From an uncultured Pelagibacteraceae bacterium (lineage in GTDB: Bacteria > Pseudomonadota > Alphaproteobacteria > Pelagibacterales > Pelagibacteraceae), in the NCBI GenBank assembly GCA_902628635.1, contig CACONQ010000005.1:1-54864 (forward strand): a DNA stretch of 54,864 bases, in the 5' to 3' direction. The notes beneath the pieces were generated by a model. It was not told where the DNA came from and searched no databases. It worked only from the letters and a program-made list of their open reading frames with translations. Shown piece after piece: positions 665-48,092 of this stretch (its first letter is position 1; the number at the start of each line of letters is the position of its first letter). Both the position numbers and the translations under genes were made by a program.

Positions 665-846
665 TGAGAAAGATGGAACAAATTATTTTAATGCAAAAGA
701 TAGAAAATCTACAAAACAATTGTTTAACCGCAATGGAAAAAACTATCAAGGGTACCTGGGCATATGAATTTTGGACCGATACTTTCGATAAACTTGAAAA
801 AAACTATAACTCAATAAAAAACAAAGAGGGGATAAATGACAATTAA
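664..846 (+). CDS. Small hypothetical protein between mraZ and ftsZ
   Basis: A 60-residue ORF that I do not recognise. It starts on the ATG overlapping the mraZ stop by one base and ends 11 bases inside ftsZ, so translational coupling to both is likely and supports it being real. The protein is hydrophilic and probably mostly helical, with a Trp/aromatic-rich centre ([12 protein letters not shown]) and many Lys/Asn. It has no signal peptide or membrane segment. In canonical clusters rsmH occupies this position, so it is not a recognisable remnant of that gene. A division-related role is only suggested by position. Confidence 0.6.
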
Positions 847-2278
847 CTTTAGAGCACCAGATATAAAAGAATTAAAACCTAGAATTTTAGTTTTAGGAGT
901 TGGGGGAGCAGGCGGAAATGCAATCAATGAAATGATAGAGTCTGGAGTGGAAGGTGTAGAATTTGTTGCTGTAAATACAGACGCACAAGATTTAAAAGCG
1001 AGCAAAGCAAAGCAAAAAGTACAATTAGGTCTTAATTTAACAAAAGGTCTTGGGGCAGGTGCTAAAGTTGAAATTGGTCAAGCTGCTGCAGATGAATCTT
1101 TAAATGAAATTATGGATTTATTGAAAGGTGCAAATATGGTTTTTATTACTGCAGGAATGGGCGGTGGAACTGGAACTGGTGCAGCTCACGTGATTGCCAG
1201 AGCATCTAAAGAACTTAATATTTTAACAGTTGGAGTAGTCACGCTTCCTTTTTTGTATGAAGCCCCATCTAGGATGAGAAGAGGCCAACAAGGCTTGGAA
1301 GAGTTAAGAAAACATGTAGATACAATTATTGTCATTCCAAACCAAAACCTTTTCAAAGTTGCAAATGAAAAAACAACATTAAAAGAGTCTTTCAAACTTT
1401 CAAATGGAGTACTTAGACACGGTGTTCAAAGTGTAACTGATTTGATGGTTAAACAAGGATTAATTAATTTAGATTTTGCAGATGTTGAAACGGTAATGAG
1501 CCGTATGGGTAAAGCCATGATGGGAACAGGCGAAGCCGAAGGTGAAGGCAGGGCGTTAAAAGCTACAGAGATGGCTTTAAATAATCCGTTAATTGATGAT
1601 TATTCATTAAGAGGAGCGAGAGGTTTGCTAATAAACATAACAGGAGGAGAAGATCTAACTCTATTTGAAACAGATGAAATTGTTAATAAAATAAGAAATG
1701 AGGTAGATCATGCGGCAGAAATTATAATTGGATCGGTAACAGATAACTCTCTAGAAGGCAAAGTAAGAGTTTCAATTGTTGCAACGGCTCTTGATGGACA
1801 ACAGCCCGAGTCTAAATCTGTAATAAATATGGTTCATAGAATTCAAAATCGCAATCCAGGTTATTCAGATTTTTCAACATTACATAATTCACAATCTTTT
1901 AATTATTCAAATGCACCAACACCAACGAGTGGTGCTAATGCGTTAAAAGTTGATGAGGCATTACCAAGCTCTAATGAGCCAAAAATAGACAATGAAAGTA
2001 TTCTTGATCAGAATATTAATATTAATAGTGATTTAGGGGCTGTAGAAAATTCGATGAATCATAGTGAGGAAAGCCTAGTTTTGACTGAGGAAGTAAAAGA
2101 TCAAGTTTCCGAGTCTAACGGATTAGAAAATTTTGGACTTGCTGATGACGAGCCAAATTTATTTGATGGATCTGAAGCTAATCATGGATCAGATGATAAT
2201 AACCAGGAAGACGCTGATAATAATTTTGATGAAGATGATTTCGAAATTCCGGCATTTTTAAGAAGACAAAAAAACTAA
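836..2278 (+). CDS. ftsZ: Cell division protein FtsZ
   Basis: Tubulin-like GTPase that polymerises into the cytokinetic ring. The N-terminal half carries GVGGAGGNA and the tubulin signature GGGTGTG at residues 109-115; the T7-loop and C-terminal GTPase regions follow. A long acidic, Asn-rich linker (about 320-465) leads to the conserved tail [11 protein letters not shown] at 470-480, which in other bacteria binds FtsA and other anchors. At 480 residues it is long but normal for alphaproteobacteria. The sequence AGAGGGG (825-831) is a good ribosome site. Its location directly after mraZ is unusual: it normally follows ftsA. Confidence 0.97.
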
Positions 2279-5282: not shown

Positions 5283-8132
5283 ATGTTGATAGGAGAGTTA
5301 TTTAAAATAAAAAATAAAAAAATAAGAAATCATTTTTTTTCAGGTTTAAGCTTTAATAGCAATTCATGCAAAAAAAATTTCATTTTTTTTGCGATTAAAG
5401 GAAATTTGCAAGATGGGAATAAATACATAGACGAAGCTATTGAAAATGGTGCAAGAACAATTATTCATCAAAAGCCTTTTGAAGGTTTTAAAGGAGAAGT
5501 TTTATTTTTAAGTTACAAAAATATCAGAAAAATTCTAGCCTCCACATCTTTTAAGTTTTATAATAAAATACCTAATAATATAATTGCAGTTACTGGAACA
5601 AATGGTAAGTCTTCGGTATCAGATTTTTATTATCAAATTTTAAAAATTAATAGAGTTAGCGTAGGTTCAATAGGAACTCTTGGAATAAAATTTAAAAATA
5701 AACTAATTTCGTTAAATAATACTACATTAGACTCTTTAAATCTTTCAAAGTACCTAACTATTTTAAAAAAAAAAAAAATCGACAATGTAATATTAGAGGC
5801 TTCAAGTCATGGCTTAAAACAACATAGACTCGATGGTTTAAAAATAACTTCTGCAATTTTTACTAATTTTTCTCATGATCATTTAGATTATCATAAAAAT
5901 TTAAAAAATTACCTCAATTCCAAACTATACCTTTTTAACTCTCTTCTAAAAAAAAACTCATTATTAATCACTGATAGATCAATAAAAGAGTTTAAAAAAA
6001 TATTTAATATTTCAAAAAAGAGAAAATTACGTTTAAAAACTATTCTTGATGAAAAAAGTGATTTACAGTTGATCAATCACGCCTATGAGGGTGAAAAGCA
6101 AAAAATTCAAATTAAATATAAGAATAAAATTTACAGTTTTTACATTAATTTAATTGGAAAAACCCAGATTAAAAATATTTTAATGTCAATCTTGGCAGCA
6201 GAAAGTTCAAAATTAAATTTTGAAAAAATTATTAAAAATATTAGTAAGTTAAAACCAATTGATGGTAGGTTTGAAAAAATTGGAAATTTAAAAAATAATG
6301 CTATTGTAATTTTAGACTATGCCCATACTCCGGACGCTTTAAGAACCTGTTTAAATGATCTTAAAAGTCAATTCCCATCCAAAAAAATTAATATCGTATT
6401 TGGCTGTGGAGGTGATAGGGATAAATACAAAAGACCAAAAATGGGGGCTATAGCAAATTCTTATTGCTCACAGATATATCTCACAGATGATAACCCAAGA
6501 TTTGAAAACCCAAAAGAAATAAGAAAAGAAATAAAAAAAAATATTTTGAAATCTAAAGTATTGGAGATATCAAACCGACGAATAGCAATTTCAAAAGCAA
6601 TTCAAAATTTAAAATCAGACGAAGTATTAGTTGTTGCGGGTAAAGGTCATGAAAAAATTCAGGATTATGGAAATAAAAAAATTTTTTTCTCTGACAAAGA
6701 AGTTATAAAAAAATCTATAGCAATTAAAAATAAAAAACTTTCTAACAATATAAAAGTTAATATTTTCAATGAGTATTTTAATAAAAATATTTCAAAGAAA
6801 AAAAAAATCCAAAAAGCTTCGATTAACTCTAAAACTTTGAAAAAAAATGATATATTTTTTGCTATTAAAGGAAAAAAAAATGATGGAAATTCATTTGTAA
6901 AACAAGCATTTGATAATGGCGCACTTTTTGCGATTGTAAATAGATATCAAAAATCAATTAATAGAACTAATCAAATAAAAGTATCTAATACCCTAGAATG
7001 TTTGACAGATTTATCAAAAATAATTAGACAGAATTTTAAAGGAAAAATTATTGCAATCACAGGAAGTTGTGGAAAAACATCTTTAAAACAAATGTCAGGA
7101 GAAGTTTTGAACGATTTTAGCAAAACAACTTTTTCATTAGGGTCTTATAATAATAAATATGGGGTTCCATTAAGCTTATTTAATCTCAATACTAAAAATA
7201 AAAATGGAATTTTTGAGATTGGAATGGATAAAAAAGGTGAAATAGATTTTTTAAGTAAAATTTTAAATCCAAATATCGGCGTTATAACAAATATTTCATA
7301 TGCTCATGCTAAAAATTTTAAAAATATAAATGAGATTGCAGCAGCCAAAGGGGAGTTAATTAATAACATTCAAAAAGGCGGGATAATAATTTTAAACAAA
7401 GACGACAGATTTTTTGATTTTCACTATAAAAATGCAATTAAAAAAGATCTTAAAGTTTTTTCTTTTGGAATAAAAAAAAAGGGAAATATATCCTTAATTT
7501 CAACTAAAAAGCAAAATAAACTTTTTAAGATTACTGTAAAAATATTTAATCAAAAAAAATTATTTTTCATAAAAAATATCAATCAAAATAATTTATATAA
7601 TGTTCTGGCATGTATAGGTATAATCTACTCAGTAGGTGAATTAAAAAATTTATCAAGAAACTCTTTCATAAAATTTAAAAATCCCAAAGGAAGAGGAGAT
7701 ATTTCTAAAATTTATTTTAAAAACAAACAATTTTATTTAGTAGATGAAAGCTACAATTCGAACCCCTTATCAATGGAGTCAGCTATAAAAAATTATAACA
7801 TGATAAAGACAAAAAATAATAAAAAGCACCTTTTAATGGGTGATATGCTTGAATTAGGAAGTTTATCAAAAAAACTACATATTAGTTTAAGTAAAAACAT
7901 AAATAATTCATCGATAGATAAGTTTCACATTTTTGGTAGATTCGTTAAAGAAACATTTAAAAAAGTCAAAAACATAAAAAAAGGGAAATATTTGACTAAA
8001 CTAAATCAAATTAATGATTTGATTATTAAAGAATTAAATAATAATGACTATTTAATGGTTAAAGGATCAAATTCTACTGGTTTGAATAAATTTATCTTAA
8101 AACTAAAGGGTAATAAATCTCATGCTTTATAG
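5283..8132 (+). CDS. murEF: MurE-MurF fusion: bifunctional UDP-MurNAc-tripeptide / pentapeptide synthase
   Basis: One continuous 949-residue ORF contains two Mur ligases. Residues 1 to about 480 are MurE, which adds the third stem amino acid. It has the ATP motif GTNGKSS at 105-111, and the DNPR motif near 403-406 points to meso-diaminopimelate as substrate; GKGHE follows. Residues from about 490 to the end are MurF, which adds D-Ala-D-Ala, with ATP motif GSCGKTS at 594-600 and the substrate segment DESYNSNPLSM. Both active sites look intact. Fused murE-murF is known elsewhere but is not the usual state. Overlaps mraY by 11 bases. Confidence 0.95.
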   Translation: MLIGELFKIKNKKIRNHFFSGLSFNSNSCKKNFIFFAIKGNLQDGNKYIDEAIENGARTIIHQKPFEGFKGEVLFLSYKNIRKILASTSFKFYNKIPNNIIAVTGTNGKSSVSDFYYQILKINRVSVGSIGTLGIKFKNKLISLNNTTLDSLNLSKYLTILKKKKIDNVILEASSHGLKQHRLDGLKITSAIFTNFSHDHLDYHKNLKNYLNSKLYLFNSLLKKNSLLITDRSIKEFKKIFNISKKRKLRLKTILDEKSDLQLINHAYEGEKQKIQIKYKNKIYSFYINLIGKTQIKNILMSILAAESSKLNFEKIIKNISKLKPIDGRFEKIGNLKNNAIVILDYAHTPDALRTCLNDLKSQFPSKKINIVFGCGGDRDKYKRPKMGAIANSYCSQIYLTDDNPRFENPKEIRKEIKKNILKSKVLEISNRRIAISKAIQNLKSDEVLVVAGKGHEKIQDYGNKKIFFSDKEVIKKSIAIKNKKLSNNIKVNIFNEYFNKNISKKKKIQKASINSKTLKKNDIFFAIKGKKNDGNSFVKQAFDNGALFAIVNRYQKSINRTNQIKVSNTLECLTDLSKIIRQNFKGKIIAITGSCGKTSLKQMSGEVLNDFSKTTFSLGSYNNKYGVPLSLFNLNTKNKNGIFEIGMDKKGEIDFLSKILNPNIGVITNISYAHAKNFKNINEIAAAKGELINNIQKGGIIILNKDDRFFDFHYKNAIKKDLKVFSFGIKKKGNISLISTKKQNKLFKITVKIFNQKKLFFIKNINQNNLYNVLACIGIIYSVGELKNLSRNSFIKFKNPKGRGDISKIYFKNKQFYLVDESYNSNPLSMESAIKNYNMIKTKNNKKHLLMGDMLELGSLSKKLHISLSKNINNSSIDKFHIFGRFVKETFKKVKNIKKGKYLTKLNQINDLIIKELNNNDYLMVKGSNSTGLNKFILKLKGNKSHAL

Positions 8133-14988: not shown

Positions 14989-15906
14989 ATGAAAAAAATT
15001 CTTATTTTAGGTGGTGGCATCTCAAAAGAGAGAAAAATTAGTCTAGAAACAGCAAAACAGGTCAATAAAGTTTTAAATAGAAGGTTTAGAACATTTATTT
15101 GCGAACCTAATAATGATCTTATTAAAAAAATTAAAACTTTTAAACCAGATCTTATATTTAACGCTTTACATGGTCGATTTGGAGAGGACGGATATATTCA
15201 ATCAATTTTAGAAAAATTAAAAATAAAATATACGCACTCAGGCGTAATCTCATCATTCTTAGCTATGAATAAAATTTTATCGAAAGAAATATTTATTAAA
15301 AATAATATACTAACACCTAAATTCATTAAATTTAGTTTTAATAACAATAATAAAATATCAACAAAACTTATAAAAAAAATCGAACAAAGGCTTAAATTTC
15401 CGGTAGTTATAAAGCCAATTAATGAGGGATCAAGTGTAGATGTTTATATTTGTACAAAAAAAAATTTAATAACAAATTTGAAAAAATTAAAAAAATATAC
15501 TGAAATTATTATTGAGAGTTATATCGCCGGAAGAGAAATTCAAGTTGCAATTTTGGGTAAAAAAAAACTAGGAGCTATAGAACTAAAGCCAAAGAGAAAA
15601 TTTTATGATTATAAGGCTAAATATAGTTTGAGTGCAAAAACAGAGCATATTTTACCTGTAGAACTTGAAAAAAAAAAATTAGACGAAGTATTAAATTTAG
15701 CTTTGAAAGCGCACAAAATTTTAGGTTGTAGAGGTGTTACAAGATCTGACTTTAAGTTTTATAAAAACAAATTTTATTTATTAGAATTGAATACTCAACC
15801 AGGTATGACTAAGCTATCACTGGTGCCTGAAATAGCTGCATTCAGGGGGATTTCTTTTTTCAAGCTATTAAATTGGATTGTAAATGATGCATCAATCAAC
15901 AGATAA
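14989..15906 (+). CDS. ddl: D-alanine--D-alanine ligase
   Basis: ATP-grasp enzyme making the D-Ala-D-Ala dipeptide that MurF adds. The start GGGISKERKISLETA is the family N-terminal motif; FNALHGRFGEDGYIQ and KPINEGSSVDV (ATP-binding loop) follow; ELNTQPGMTKLSLVPE carries metal and substrate ligands. 305 residues, typical. It directly follows murB without a gap and overlaps ftsQ by 23 bases, which is long but usual for this compact cluster. Confidence 0.95.
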   Translation: MKKILILGGGISKERKISLETAKQVNKVLNRRFRTFICEPNNDLIKKIKTFKPDLIFNALHGRFGEDGYIQSILEKLKIKYTHSGVISSFLAMNKILSKEIFIKNNILTPKFIKFSFNNNNKISTKLIKKIEQRLKFPVVIKPINEGSSVDVYICTKKNLITNLKKLKKYTEIIIESYIAGREIQVAILGKKKLGAIELKPKRKFYDYKAKYSLSAKTEHILPVELEKKKLDEVLNLALKAHKILGCRGVTRSDFKFYKNKFYLLELNTQPGMTKLSLVPEIAAFRGISFFKLLNWIVNDASINR

Positions 15907-16549
15907 AATTAAAAGAATATTTATATATATCTTAATATTTTTATTTGCATCAACTATATTTAATTTTCAAATTTTAAATTCTTTTTTAAAACTTTTTAAA
16001 ATCAATAAAATTGAAATCGAAAATATTGCTTACCAGAAAGAATTTAATTTTTTTGAAGGTCAAAATATTTTTAATTTAAATAAGAGAGATGTTATTGATG
16101 TAATTACAAAATTTCCTAATATAGAAAAATATAAAATAAATAAAATTTATCCAAATCAAATAGATATTTCATTATTTGAAACAAAGCCTATTGGAAAAAT
16201 TTTTAAAAATAATGAATTATTTATTATCGGTTCAAACGGTAAAACTTTTAAAGGAAAAGATAGCAAAAATCTTCCCTTAATTGAGGGAACTTTAGAAATG
16301 AATAAAATAAATAATTTTTTAGAAAAAATTCAATTAAGCACTTTTAGTCTTAATAAAATGGAAAAATTGGTTTATTATCCATCAAATAGATGGGATGTTA
16401 TTTTTAATGATAAAACTATTCTGAAGCTACCCTCGGAACAAATAACAACCAATATTAAACGAGCTGAAATCTTATTTCGTACAAAAGATTTTAAAAGTAA
16501 AGTTATAGATTTAAGAATAAAAGATAAATTGATATTATATAATGAGTAA
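15884..16549 (+). CDS. ftsQ: Cell division protein FtsQ
   Basis: Bitopic divisome protein: a short cytoplasmic N-terminus, a membrane helix at about residues 10-30, then a periplasmic POTRA domain (IEIENIAYQKEFNFFEGQNIFNL through YPNQIDISLFETKPIGK) and the FtsQ beta-domain. 221 residues is shorter than most alphaproteobacterial FtsQ. The identification rests on these segments and on the ddl-ftsQ-ftsA order. It overlaps the ftsA-like gene by eight bases. The ATGATG at 15884 gives two adjacent possible starts. Confidence 0.88.
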   Translation: MMHQSTDKIKRIFIYILIFLFASTIFNFQILNSFLKLFKINKIEIENIAYQKEFNFFEGQNIFNLNKRDVIDVITKFPNIEKYKINKIYPNQIDISLFETKPIGKIFKNNELFIIGSNGKTFKGKDSKNLPLIEGTLEMNKINNFLEKIQLSTFSLNKMEKLVYYPSNRWDVIFNDKTILKLPSEQITTNIKRAEILFRTKDFKSKVIDLRIKDKLILYNE

Positions 16550-17240
16550 TGAAATTTTTATTATTTTATCAGAAAATCAGATATCTGTAAGTGTTTTTGA
16601 TAAAGAAAAAGACAAAAGTATTTATGAAAAGATATATAAAATTGAAAATAACTTATCTGACAATATTAAATTAGAAGATAATTTAAATGGAGTTCTTAAA
16701 GAACAAATTATAAATATTGAAAAAAAAATTAATTATAGTGTAAATAAGATAAATTTAATTTTGTGTGATCCAAATAATTTAAAAATAGAAATTTCGACAA
16801 AAAAAAGCTATGATCTTAAACAAATACAAAAAGATCAAATCCAGTACCTTATTCAGGATTTAAAACAACAGATTTTGACAAGTAATAAAGATCTTAAAAT
16901 TCTACACATAATTATTGAAAATTATATAATTGATGGGAATAAAATTCATGAAATTCCGCTACAAATTAATTGCAAAAATTTAATAATTGAAGCAAGATTT
17001 ATATGTGTTAAGAAAAATTTAGCTGACTTTTTTTATAGAATTTTTAAAAATTACCAAATTAAACTTAATTCTATAATTTGTGGTAATTATGCTTTATCTT
17101 TGAATGAAAATGATAAAAGCAATCCACTTGAGGGTGGTTTAAAGGTTGTGAATGGTGAAAACATGAAAGAAGTATATATTTTACCAAAAAAACCGGCCAA
17201 GTTGGGCTTTTTTGAGAAAATGTTTCACTTATTTTCCTAG
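16542..17240 (+). CDS. ftsA: Truncated FtsA-like protein: 1C-like domain plus membrane-targeting tail
   Basis: A 232-residue protein in the exact place of ftsA (normally about 410-430 residues). Residues about 120-195 fit the FtsA 1C region: ILHIIIENYIIDGNKI corresponds to the family's ILHxxPxxYxxDG motif, followed by NLIIEARFICVKKN. The N-terminus is compatible with a worn 1A strand set, but the phosphate-1 motif (DIGTSK-like) is gone. Nothing corresponds to domains 2A/2B or to the adenosine motif. After a short linker the protein ends in KLGFFEKMFHLFS, an amphipathic helix like the FtsA membrane anchor. ATP binding should be lost. Start overlaps ftsQ by eight bases. Confidence 0.75.
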   Translation: MSNEIFIILSENQISVSVFDKEKDKSIYEKIYKIENNLSDNIKLEDNLNGVLKEQIINIEKKINYSVNKINLILCDPNNLKIEISTKKSYDLKQIQKDQIQYLIQDLKQQILTSNKDLKILHIIIENYIIDGNKIHEIPLQINCKNLIIEARFICVKKNLADFFYRIFKNYQIKLNSIICGNYALSLNENDKSNPLEGGLKVVNGENMKEVYILPKKPAKLGFFEKMFHLFS

Positions 17241-17302: not shown

Positions 17303-18223
17303 ATGTCAATTTTACACCAGAAAACCTTAAAGCAACCCATAAATTTTGAAGGTATAACGTTACATAAGGGCAAACACGCCAAGGTAAAAATCCTTCCATC
17401 TTCACCAAATTCCGGTGTAGTTTTTAAGAGAGTTGATCTTAAAAACAATAACTTTATATCAGCAAATTTTCAAAATGTTTCTAATGCTAACTTATGCACA
17501 ACAATAACGAATGAATTTGGAGTTAGTGTATCTACAATCGAACATCTAATGGCCGCTTTGTATGGAAAAGGTGTAGATAACGCAATAATTGAAATTGACC
17601 AGGATGAAGTTCCAATAAAAGATGGATCTGCAAAATACTTTATTGAGGAGATTGAAAAAGTTGGGTTAAATATAAGTAGCACACCAATAAAGATAATTAA
17701 AATTTTAAACAAAGTAGAATTCAAGGATGGAGAGAAAACAATTTCAATAGAACCTTCAAAAACATCTCTAGAAATTGATTTCGAAATTAAGTTTAAAAAT
17801 CAAAAAATCGGTACTCAAAGAAACAGTGTTAATATGTACGAGTCTGATTTGAATAATATTTATAACTCAAGAACGTTTTGTCTTTATGAGGATGTAGAAA
17901 AGTTAAAAAAAATGAATCTCGCTCAAGGTGGCTCTCTTGACAATGCAATTGTTGTAAAAGGAAATAAAGTAATGAATGAAGGCGGCCTTAGAAACGAGAA
18001 AGAATTTGTAAACCATAAAATACTTGATTGTATGGGAGACCTTTTCTTGTCAGGGGCAAAAATTATTGGAAAAATTGTATGTTCTCAAGGTGGACACAAA
18101 CTTACAAATCAAATGTTAAGAAAAGTTTTTAACAATAATCAAAACTTTTCTATATTTGAACTTAAAGAAAAAAATATCCCTCACTCGTTTATCAATAAAA
18201 CAGCGCTTAAATCAATAGCGTAA
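17303..18223 (+). CDS. lpxC: UDP-3-O-acyl-N-acetylglucosamine deacetylase LpxC
   Basis: Zn-dependent deacetylase, the committed step of lipid A synthesis, so the organism has an LPS-type outer membrane. Motifs: EHLMAALYG (Zn His), GSAKYFIEEI, NEGGLRNEKEFVNHKILDCMGDL (second Zn His and Asp) and SQGGHKLTN (catalytic His). 306 residues from ATG 17303; a TTG at 17300 is also in frame but less likely. The 62-base gap before it, the first real gap since mraZ, has only a weak promoter-like pair (TTGTAA 17251, ATACAT 17274). It lies at the usual alphaproteobacterial end of the dcw cluster. Confidence 0.95.
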   Translation: MSILHQKTLKQPINFEGITLHKGKHAKVKILPSSPNSGVVFKRVDLKNNNFISANFQNVSNANLCTTITNEFGVSVSTIEHLMAALYGKGVDNAIIEIDQDEVPIKDGSAKYFIEEIEKVGLNISSTPIKIIKILNKVEFKDGEKTISIEPSKTSLEIDFEIKFKNQKIGTQRNSVNMYESDLNNIYNSRTFCLYEDVEKLKKMNLAQGGSLDNAIVVKGNKVMNEGGLRNEKEFVNHKILDCMGDLFLSGAKIIGKIVCSQGGHKLTNQMLRKVFNNNQNFSIFELKEKNIPHSFINKTALKSIA

Positions 18224-28184: not shown

Positions 28185-28574
28185 ATGTCGAAAATACAAA
28201 ATAATATTTCATTATTTTTAATCGCAATACTCATTTTGCTAATTTGTAAAAATACTAATTTTTTTAAAAACTTGTATGATGTAACTTCAAAAAATCATGA
28301 TAGTAGACAACAAAAAGTTTATGATTTTTGCGAACTTTTCGGAACCGGATATGTAATTTATATTAAAAATAAGTTTAACTTAAATACTCCACCCGAGATA
28401 AAAAATTTTGAAAGGTCACCTCAACAATATTGGATTTTTAGTAAAAATTATAAAAAAATTGATAAAGATAAATTAATAATCTTGAATAAAACAAAAAATA
28501 TAAAATTAAAAAACAATGATTTTAAAATTTTAGATAATTTTAGGGACAGGTGTTTTTATATGGTTAAAAAATGA
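28185..28574 (+). CDS. Small membrane-anchored hypothetical protein
   Basis: Unrecognised protein of 129 residues from ATG 28185 (a TTG nine bases upstream is in frame). One hydrophobic segment (about residues 9-24) would place the rest outside the cytoplasmic membrane. Two Cys (in VYDFCELFG and FRDRCFYMV) could form a disulphide. It ends in ATGA with the next gene, so it is probably the partner of the polytopic membrane protein at 28571. No function can be assigned. Confidence 0.65.
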   Translation: MSKIQNNISLFLIAILILLICKNTNFFKNLYDVTSKNHDSRQQKVYDFCELFGTGYVIYIKNKFNLNTPPEIKNFERSPQQYWIFSKNYKKIDKDKLIILNKTKNIKLKNNDFKILDNFRDRCFYMVKK

Positions 28575-29866
28575 CAGAACTAATTAATATTTTATCATAT
28601 ACCATTATTTTATCTTTGTTATTTTTCATGCCTTTTTTTAAAAAAAAGTTTTTAATATCAAAAAAAATATCGTTGGATGAATATGATCTTCCTGTATTAA
28701 ATATTTTATTTCTTACAAATTTATTTCTTATATTTTCAATATTTAATTTTACTATTTCTCAAATAACTAGCATATTTTATTCGATAATTTTTATATTCTT
28801 AATATATCTTTTTTCTAATTTTAAAAAACTTTTATTTCCCAAAAATATAATTTATTTTTTTATTTTTTATTCGATAATATTATTAATTTTTTCAATTGAT
28901 CTATCAAAAAATCTATTTTTATACTGGGATGCTCAAAAGATATGGTTACCAAAAGCAATTTCATTTTATAATGATGGTTTAATTATAGATTTAAAAAATA
29001 CCGCTTATTCACATTACTCATTTTTAGGATCACTCTTATGGGCTTTCTTTTGGAAAATTTCTGGTTCTGAGTATGAATATTTTGGAAGAATATTTTTTTT
29101 AGCAATATATTTGTTTGCCATTCTTAATTTATTAAGTTTGATATCAGTAAATAAGAATATTAAAATTATCTTATTTCTAATATTAACTTTAATAACTTAT
29201 GACTACTGGCTTTTTAGAGGGACCCAAGAAATTCTAGTTTTTTCGTTTCTATTAATTTTATCAAAATATCTATTTAATTTATTTGCGGAAGATAAAAATG
29301 TAATGATAAATCTGTTAAATATTTTTCTGTGTTTAAATTTGATAATTTGGACAAAAAATGAGGGAATTGTTCTCAGTTTAATAATATTATTTATTTTAAT
29401 TATTTTCTTTAAGGAAACTACAAAATTTAAATTAATTTTAATAACTATGCTTTTTTCTATGATATTGGTGCGGTTTTTAACATTTAAATTAAATGGACTT
29501 GACTTAGACCTTTCTAAAGATTTCGAATTTTCAAATATAATAAGTATTTTTTTTAACAATTTTACAATAATAAATCTAGCGCTTATTTTTAAATACATTA
29601 TTTTTTCATTATTTAAATTTCCACACATAGTTTTAAGCATATTTTTTGCTTTAGCTATTGCTTTTGATAAGCGTTTATTTAAAAAATTTATTTTTTTATA
29701 TGTCTATCTTTTTTTAAGTATATTTTTAATTTTCTTTATTTATCTTAGCTCTCCTCATGATTTAGATTTTATGGTAAGCACTGGATCTATGAGACTAATG
29801 CTTGAGTTTTCAGCACCAAATCTGCTTTTTATACTTATATTTTTTAAGAACAAATTTAAAATCTAA
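28571..29866 (+). CDS. Polytopic membrane protein, GT-C glycosyltransferase-like
   Basis: A 431-residue protein with about ten or more hydrophobic helices. After the third or fourth helix a loop reads YWDAQKIWLPKAISFYNDG, with an acidic residue and aromatic context as in GT-C glycosyltransferases that use polyprenyl-phosphate sugars. FRGTQEILVFSFLL and WTKNEG are further loops of that style. The sugar and acceptor are unknown, and a non-enzymatic membrane role cannot be excluded. Coupled (ATGA) to the small protein before it. Eleven bases after its stop begins the first tmRNA-like repeat. Confidence 0.6.
   Translation: MTELINILSYTIILSLLFFMPFFKKKFLISKKISLDEYDLPVLNILFLTNLFLIFSIFNFTISQITSIFYSIIFIFLIYLFSNFKKLLFPKNIIYFFIFYSIILLIFSIDLSKNLFLYWDAQKIWLPKAISFYNDGLIIDLKNTAYSHYSFLGSLLWAFFWKISGSEYEYFGRIFFLAIYLFAILNLLSLISVNKNIKIILFLILTLITYDYWLFRGTQEILVFSFLLILSKYLFNLFAEDKNVMINLLNIFLCLNLIIWTKNEGIVLSLIILFILIIFFKETTKFKLILITMLFSMILVRFLTFKLNGLDLDLSKDFEFSNIISIFFNNFTIINLALIFKYIIFSLFKFPHIVLSIFFALAIAFDKRLFKKFIFLYVYLFLSIFLIFFIYLSSPHDLDFMVSTGSMRLMLEFSAPNLLFILIFFKNKFKI

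Positions 29867-45478: not shown

Positions 45479-48092
<2,614 letters not shown>

Follow-up and report, generated by a model that had tools for sequence, protein, structure and literature searches.

Here, we describe a half-size orthologue of ftsA that lies between ftsQ and lpxC in a 54,864-nucleotide stretch of DNA (the window) from the draft genome (26 contigs, 84% complete) of an uncultured Pelagibacteraceae bacterium. In bacterial division, FtsA is generally regarded as a principal anchor of the ring to the membrane and as its ATP-dependent switch. The open reading frame (16542-17240, forward strand) starts with ATG, encodes 232 amino acids, and overlaps by 8 nucleotides the upstream ftsQ (15884-16549, forward strand; PF03799 and PF08478). 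It is followed by lpxC (17303-18223, forward strand; PF03331, E 6.8e-95), with bamD (PF13525) also in the neighborhood, and the order ddl-ftsQ-ftsA-lpxC-bamD is common to the loci with both flanks, whether their ftsA is short or long. The short product, called the stub below, matches Pfam SHS2_FTSA (PF02491) over residues 93-154 (E 6e-5) just under the curated cut-off (23.8 vs 25.4 bits), and is the sole match, at 25.8 bits and above the cut-off, when the whole genome is searched. NCBIfam TIGR01174 (ftsA) matches residues 84-186 (E 2e-6) and its whole-protein cut-off is missed by a wide margin (27.1 vs 175.85 bits); an E-value of 0.001 is reached by 3 of 32 stubs with SHS2_FTSA and by 21 of 32 with TIGR01174. 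The original prediction, made from the letters of the window, had put a 232-residue gene in the ftsA position, which the frame, the FtsA profile matches and the ftsQ and lpxC flanks bear out. It had also recognized a 1C motif and a terminal amphipathic helix, and both the 1C strand ILHIIIENYIIDG and the helix KLGFFEKMFHLFS are present, the latter backed by its hydrophobic moment.

The predicted structure of the stub (AlphaFold, 32-sequence alignment; pLDDT 88.2, pTM 0.82) was divided into parts, all on the forward strand, with domain names taken from comparison with FtsA and limits of our own. The N-terminal part of domain 1A (residues 1-79; 16542-16778), delimited by model secondary structure and a motif scan, has three strands, a long helix (41-63) and a further strand (69-74), and has no phosphate-1 motif. 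Domain 1C, or SHS2 (residues 80-169; 16779-17048), is placed by the PF02491 match, the model, and a profile match to FtsA entries of the PDB. The second part of domain 1A (residues 170-191; 17049-17114), with a strand (174-180) and a short helix, is placed by the model and by the junction in the alignment with long forms; the excision point lies after it, near residue 190, and the first piece of a long-FtsA profile match ends at base 17117. Beyond that point come the last 1A helix (196-203) and a conserved NxxE stretch (together residues 192-214; 17115-17183), which fall in the second piece of the profile match (17124-17237) and include E210, invariant in 38 stubs. A linker and a C-terminal amphipathic membrane helix (residues 215-232; 17184-17237) complete the protein, as judged by a predicted helix at 223-231, hydrophobic moment, and identity among stubs. 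This helix is modeled with low confidence (block pLDDT 55-61), and in 32/32 aligned stubs the hydrophobic moment of the last 11 residues is above that of most shuffled orders (shuffle fraction <0.1).

By sequence comparison and predicted structure, the excised part is domain 2 (2A plus 2B). Searched with a long-FtsA profile, 11 stub genomes, five of which are single contigs, gave the stub locus as the only match, with a first piece ending at model position 182-204, a second piece (346-357 to 391-392) in nine genomes and the first piece alone in two, and with positions 205-345, which represent domain 2, uncovered in all 11. A stub profile aligned to the long profile with 99.8% probability over 186 columns, and the stub model superposes on 11 FtsA entries at the top of the list (196-203 residues, Z 13.3-16.1, rmsd 2.9-4.3 Å), its residues 1-208 spanning FtsA chains from about residue 4-8 to 374-392. 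Foldseek agrees on FtsA (best E 1.7e-11), so that both structure comparisons return the FtsA-like fold, SHS2/1C included, on which the prediction depended. The 369-amino-acid FtsA of a long-form genome (G026) is predicted to be a normal two-domain FtsA (330-337 residues aligned, Z 28.7-31.8), and when the secondary structures of both models are compared the stretch missing from the stub is approximately residues 189-326 of the longer protein, which is domain 2. Profile and model together thus show a protein that retains domain 1 (1A plus 1C) and the membrane helix and has no domain 2, in agreement with the original prediction that 2A and 2B are missing. Its summary that the ATPase fold is lost and a 1C-like region kept holds for 1C and the membrane helix, but is too wide for the rest, because the stub retains domain 1A as well as 1C, down to the last 1A helix beyond the excision.

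The incompleteness of the window's genome leaves room for a full-length FtsA or another FtsZ-binding actin elsewhere, with the stub as an accessory copy. We reject this as very improbable, since the long-FtsA profile finds no second FtsA in any of the 11 stub genomes, including the single contigs, and the one match to PF14450 in the window's own genome is mreB (47058-48092; MreB_Mbl, E 1e-141).

Phosphate and adenosine motifs, also predicted to be missing, were scanned for with regular expressions of our own, of which the phosphate-1-like D-x-G-x pattern is a permissive one. It occurs in 0/107 stub rows (32 from sampled genomes and 75 from GTDB contigs, some genomes being in both sets) compared to 11/11 long FtsA of the same genus, and phosphate-2 and adenosine patterns occur in 0/32 stubs compared to 9 and 10 of the 11 long forms, which confirms the absence. 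The place of phosphate-1 lies within the part that the stub retains, yet the motif is gone there. D-x-G-x is likewise absent by scan from 10/20 long FtsA of sister SAR11 genera (L055-L057, L059, L060, L064, L065, L067, L070, L071), or from 11/20 if the L066 hit (DSGT), which by our reading lies outside the motif's place, is discounted. With phosphate-1 absent from many long forms of sister genera, SAR11 may have lost nucleotide binding more widely than in the stubs, and perhaps before the deletion took place.

Querying 197 genomes of the family with the stub gave a match in 153 of them. The 51 same-genus genomes in this sample (the window's own included) comprise 32 with intact stubs (222-245 amino acids), 11 with long forms, 3 with short pieces, one with a broken stub (G078) and 4 without a match. 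The short pieces (G088, G143, G192) stop 16 bases from a contig end, and the long profile finds a long FtsA in three of the unmatched genomes (G131, G172, and G069, where it is cut by a contig end); in G109, lpxC lies at base 119 of its contig, and ftsA therefore falls in an assembly gap. A stub profile matched 121 of 147 genomes of the order, and among 76 same-genus genomes it found 44 intact stubs, 22 long forms, 7 partial or broken frames and 3 genomes without a match (G069, G109, and G273, where no lpxC match was found either). Frames are 397-403 amino acids in 31 matched genomes of the sister family and 378-420 in 15 of 17 matched genomes of other genera, the other two (G018, G019) beginning near a contig start. 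Matches in G018 and G019 (stub profile) and G159 (stub query) start less than 400 bases from the contig start; the distribution counts leave aside short frames in other genera (G115, G187, G107, G111; stub query) and G253 and G257 (stub profile), and 24 (stub query) and 6 (stub profile) unmatched genomes stand outside this account. All 20 sister-genus loci that were fetched carry a long FtsA. Within this sample, intact stubs occur only in the window's genus, side by side with long forms.

GTDB contigs were also scanned; from the 229 relatives obtained the best 80 were kept, and these carry the titles Pelagibacteraceae, Pelagibacterales or Candidatus Pelagibacter. Among these best 80 there are 78 complete frames (L078 and L107, with open 5' ends, are omitted), and 75 of them are 220-244 amino acids long (39 exactly 234), two 369 and one 388; because these 80 were selected as top matches to a stub query, the share of stubs is biased upward and the 76-genome count is fairer. 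Conservation of the short length across SAR11, raised in the original prediction, holds in that these 75 stubs keep to a range of 220-244 amino acids, but does not extend to SAR11 as a whole, given the long forms in 22/76 same-genus genomes and at 20/20 sister-genus loci. The half-size form is neither peculiar to the window's genome nor universal in SAR11. The draft state of that genome could suggest an artefact of assembly, binning or start/stop assignment in a single metagenome bin, an explanation with next to no probability that is refuted by the same length and position in independently assembled contigs and in the single-contig genomes G003, G017, G035 and G063.

Selection on the stub was estimated from close pairs of stub loci picked by lpxC similarity. 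By the Nei-Gojobori method, dN/dS is 0.147-0.321 in 14/14 pairs, with 0.118-0.369 for ftsQ and 0.046-0.117 for lpxC in the same pairs. All of 32 stubs share residues E60, H122, E210 and F228, while in 16 long forms of the genus E60 and F228 are fixed, H122 stands at 88% and E210 is unconserved; N207 is found in 89% of stubs. Mean identity is highest, of seven regions, at the linker-and-helix end (0.55 among stubs, 0.56 among long forms), is 0.40 among stubs vs 0.32 among long forms for helix 41-63, and for the 1C part (mean pairwise identity) is 0.30 vs 0.35. A decaying remnant, tolerated since FtsA is no longer needed, would agree with the fast divergence of the gene (31 other stubs are 25-50% identical to the window's), with the broken frame in G078 and with the absence of phosphate-1 from half of the sister-genus long forms. 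We disfavor it as improbable in view of the dN/dS values, the 75 of 78 complete frames (best 80 of 229) at 220-244 amino acids and the four invariant residues. The stub is under selection, and the argument of the original prediction that an intact frame speaks against a pseudogene is strengthened by the codon analysis that it had proposed and by the conserved length.

In G078 (a single contig; L047, 1763-2462) the stub ftsA changes frame around a T7A8 run at 1957-1971, the N-terminal part lying in one frame and the remainder in another; sequencing error, slippage and real loss are all candidates. The nearest row, L101, has an intact 234-amino-acid stub frame.

How often domain 2 was deleted was addressed with trees of neighboring genes and of the shared part of FtsA. 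Neighbor-gene trees nest genomes with a 368-369-amino-acid FtsA among stub genomes (3 in one tree, 5 in two others), a nesting that starred branches force in the three-genome tree and one five-genome tree and not in the other five-genome tree. A single stub clade is weakly rejected by neighboring genes (AU p 0.021 with three genes, p 0.033 with six), and the shared-part FtsA tree, which places all stubs in one clade (94/89), weakly rejects the neighbor-like grouping in turn (p 0.034), all of these p values being flattering because the groups were named after the trees had been seen. Contig-edge fragments L048-L050 were dropped from the first neighbor-gene tree on; GTDB-contig rows were thinned from 71 to 54 in one five-genome neighbor tree and 26 rows were omitted from the other; and the shared-part tree is without L047 (frame <200 amino acids) and the duplicates L077 and L145. 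The position of the junction in a MAFFT alignment is roughly the same for the 12 stubs displayed. From these sequence comparisons we lean towards a single deletion, after which lineages exchanged ftsA, and repeated deletion with convergent change may also account for them. The ftsA and neighbor-gene trees conflict on L051-L053, L098 and L113 (368-369 amino acids).

The window holds a single-copy ftsZ (836-2278, forward strand; 480 amino acids; PF00091, PF12327), whose product ends in IPAFLRR. FtsZ was found once in 28 of 30 genomes searched (17 stub, 11 long), the two others, where no match was seen, being drafts (G190, G101); all 28 proteins carry EIPAFLR plus a final R or K at the C-terminus, and the retained FtsZ tail noted in the original prediction thus extends to the relatives of the window's genome. 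The ftsZ gene is flanked by mraZ and mraW and is located about 14 kb upstream of ftsA. Its displacement was considered as a cause of the shortening and ruled out, since long-FtsA genomes (e.g., G026, G043, G005) show a similar ftsZ-ftsA distance, which is therefore unlinked to the shortening.

Other anchors and partners were searched for in 17 genomes. The proposed search for ZipA and SepF gave 0/17 genomes over the Pfam cut-off for each, with weak matches in 3 genomes for SepF and 1 for ZipA; their absence is weak evidence because the models also miss the Caulobacter control, as does the FtsX model. SPOR domains gave some match in 9/17 genomes and passed the cut-off in 4. None of the four SPOR proteins over the cut-off (L195-L198) is seen to be a SPOR-bearing FtsN; they were rejected as FtsN candidates, appearing RlpA-like with a lipobox-like start. 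A D-alanyl-D-alanine carboxypeptidase gene follows the SPOR lipoprotein-like gene in 2 of these 4 loci (Pfam check of the L197 pair).

The functions of the parts kept and lost are known from other bacteria. According to one study, the cytoplasmic tail of FtsN binds the IA-IC cleft of Vibrio FtsA, lateral filament contacts are made by IC and longitudinal ones by IIA-IIB, and the IC subdomain of the actin-like relative PilM docks PilN (PMC7613929). According to another, deletion of 2B abolishes the FtsA-FtsZ interaction and 1C recruits FtsQ and FtsN (PMC4281207). In the stub, the half that carries the cleft, 1C and the helix is present and the half that carries the FtsZ site and the longitudinal interface is missing, and for this reason we propose, with a probability of roughly 55%, that it is an ATP-free, non-filamentous docking adaptor produced by in-frame deletion of domain 2, the Z ring being tethered otherwise. 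An internal deletion of about 137 residues, relative to 369-amino-acid forms, joined domain 1 to the C-terminal amphipathic helix, as sequence comparison and the predicted structure show. Judging from the roles of the missing parts, the product would neither bind ATP in an actin cleft, nor make the IIA-IIB contact, nor bind the FtsZ tail through 2B, and would act as a membrane adaptor that is monomeric or paired laterally and available at all times. Its helix would attach it to the inner membrane, and a late divisome membrane protein would dock in the 1A-1C cleft that remains. FtsA would thus keep its recruiting job and give up Z-ring tethering, and FtsZ would in consequence reach the membrane through another protein able to read its unchanged tail. 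That this half-actin docks late division proteins only, with the other protein reading the unchanged FtsZ tail, is to our judgment an even bet. Counting against the docking-adaptor reading are that no docking partner was identified among the SPOR candidates, that the SepF and ZipA searches in 17 genomes yielded no alternative FtsZ anchor (itself weak evidence), that 1C is no better conserved among stubs than among long forms, and that the stub frame of G078 is broken.

The stub might instead still tether FtsZ in a new way, with domain 1 or the exposed former 1A-2A face binding the FtsZ tail or globular domain. The EIPAFLR tail in 28/28 genomes, the lack of SepF and ZipA over cut-off in 17, the better conservation of helix 41-63 in stubs and the fixation of E210, with N207 at 89%, would all fit. 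We nevertheless hold this to be rather unlikely, because 2B, the known FtsZ-binding part, is absent, and an unchanged FtsZ tail does not point to FtsA when other proteins may read it.

Compared with known systems, the docking adaptor proposed here shares with FtsA (TIGR01174; PDB 7Q6D, 7Q6F, 7Q6I, 1E4F, 4A2A) the locus after ftsQ, the predicted 1A and 1C fold, the C-terminal amphipathic helix and profile relatedness, and differs in its absence of domain 2, nucleotide motifs, the FtsZ-binding 2B and the IIA-IIB filament interface. Pelagibacter is an abundant marine bacterial genus, and its long FtsA (368-391 amino acids, e.g., L051-L053, L034-L041) is the same gene with the same neighbors and C-terminal helix, with 35% identity to the window's stub in the matched part for G074, G180 and G026, but has a two-domain fold (L052 model, Z 28.7-31.8) and D-x-G-x in 11/11. 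PilM and the cytoplasmic domain of GspL/EpsL are actin-like relatives that superpose on the stub model with Z 11.3 and 10.1-10.5, respectively; they belong to pilus and secretion systems, score lower than FtsA and do not occur at the ftsA locus, and MreB (Z 10.9) is also below the FtsA entries. The stub would also resemble FtsA*-like monomeric FtsA of E. coli: in a model described in PMC5508204 the monomeric form frees 1C to recruit late proteins, a state that the stub would occupy permanently. FtsA* itself is a full-length point mutant with domain 2 in place.

An FtsA without domain 2 may be a variant unreported in the literature searched: a shortened FtsA in SAR11 or Pelagibacter is not reported in the titles and abstract beginnings of literature on SAR11 cell division, FtsA and FtsZ, and prior notice is possible, as bioRxiv preprints and most subscription journals lie outside this scope. 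If the proposal is correct, the two classical jobs of FtsA, tethering and recruitment, are separable in nature, in that a form kept by selection across dozens of species of one genus without the FtsZ-binding and ATP-binding half would separate the one from the other. It becomes testable which function of FtsA a cell cannot do without and which other proteins can tether the Z ring, and close relatives with a long FtsA provide a natural comparison.

Two other frames in the window were observed. A 431-amino-acid frame (28571-29866) has no Pfam match at E 0.001, and a 949-amino-acid frame (5283-8132) matches the Mur ligase middle domain twice and the C-terminal domain twice and is apparently a fusion of MurE and MurF, the names being our own reading.
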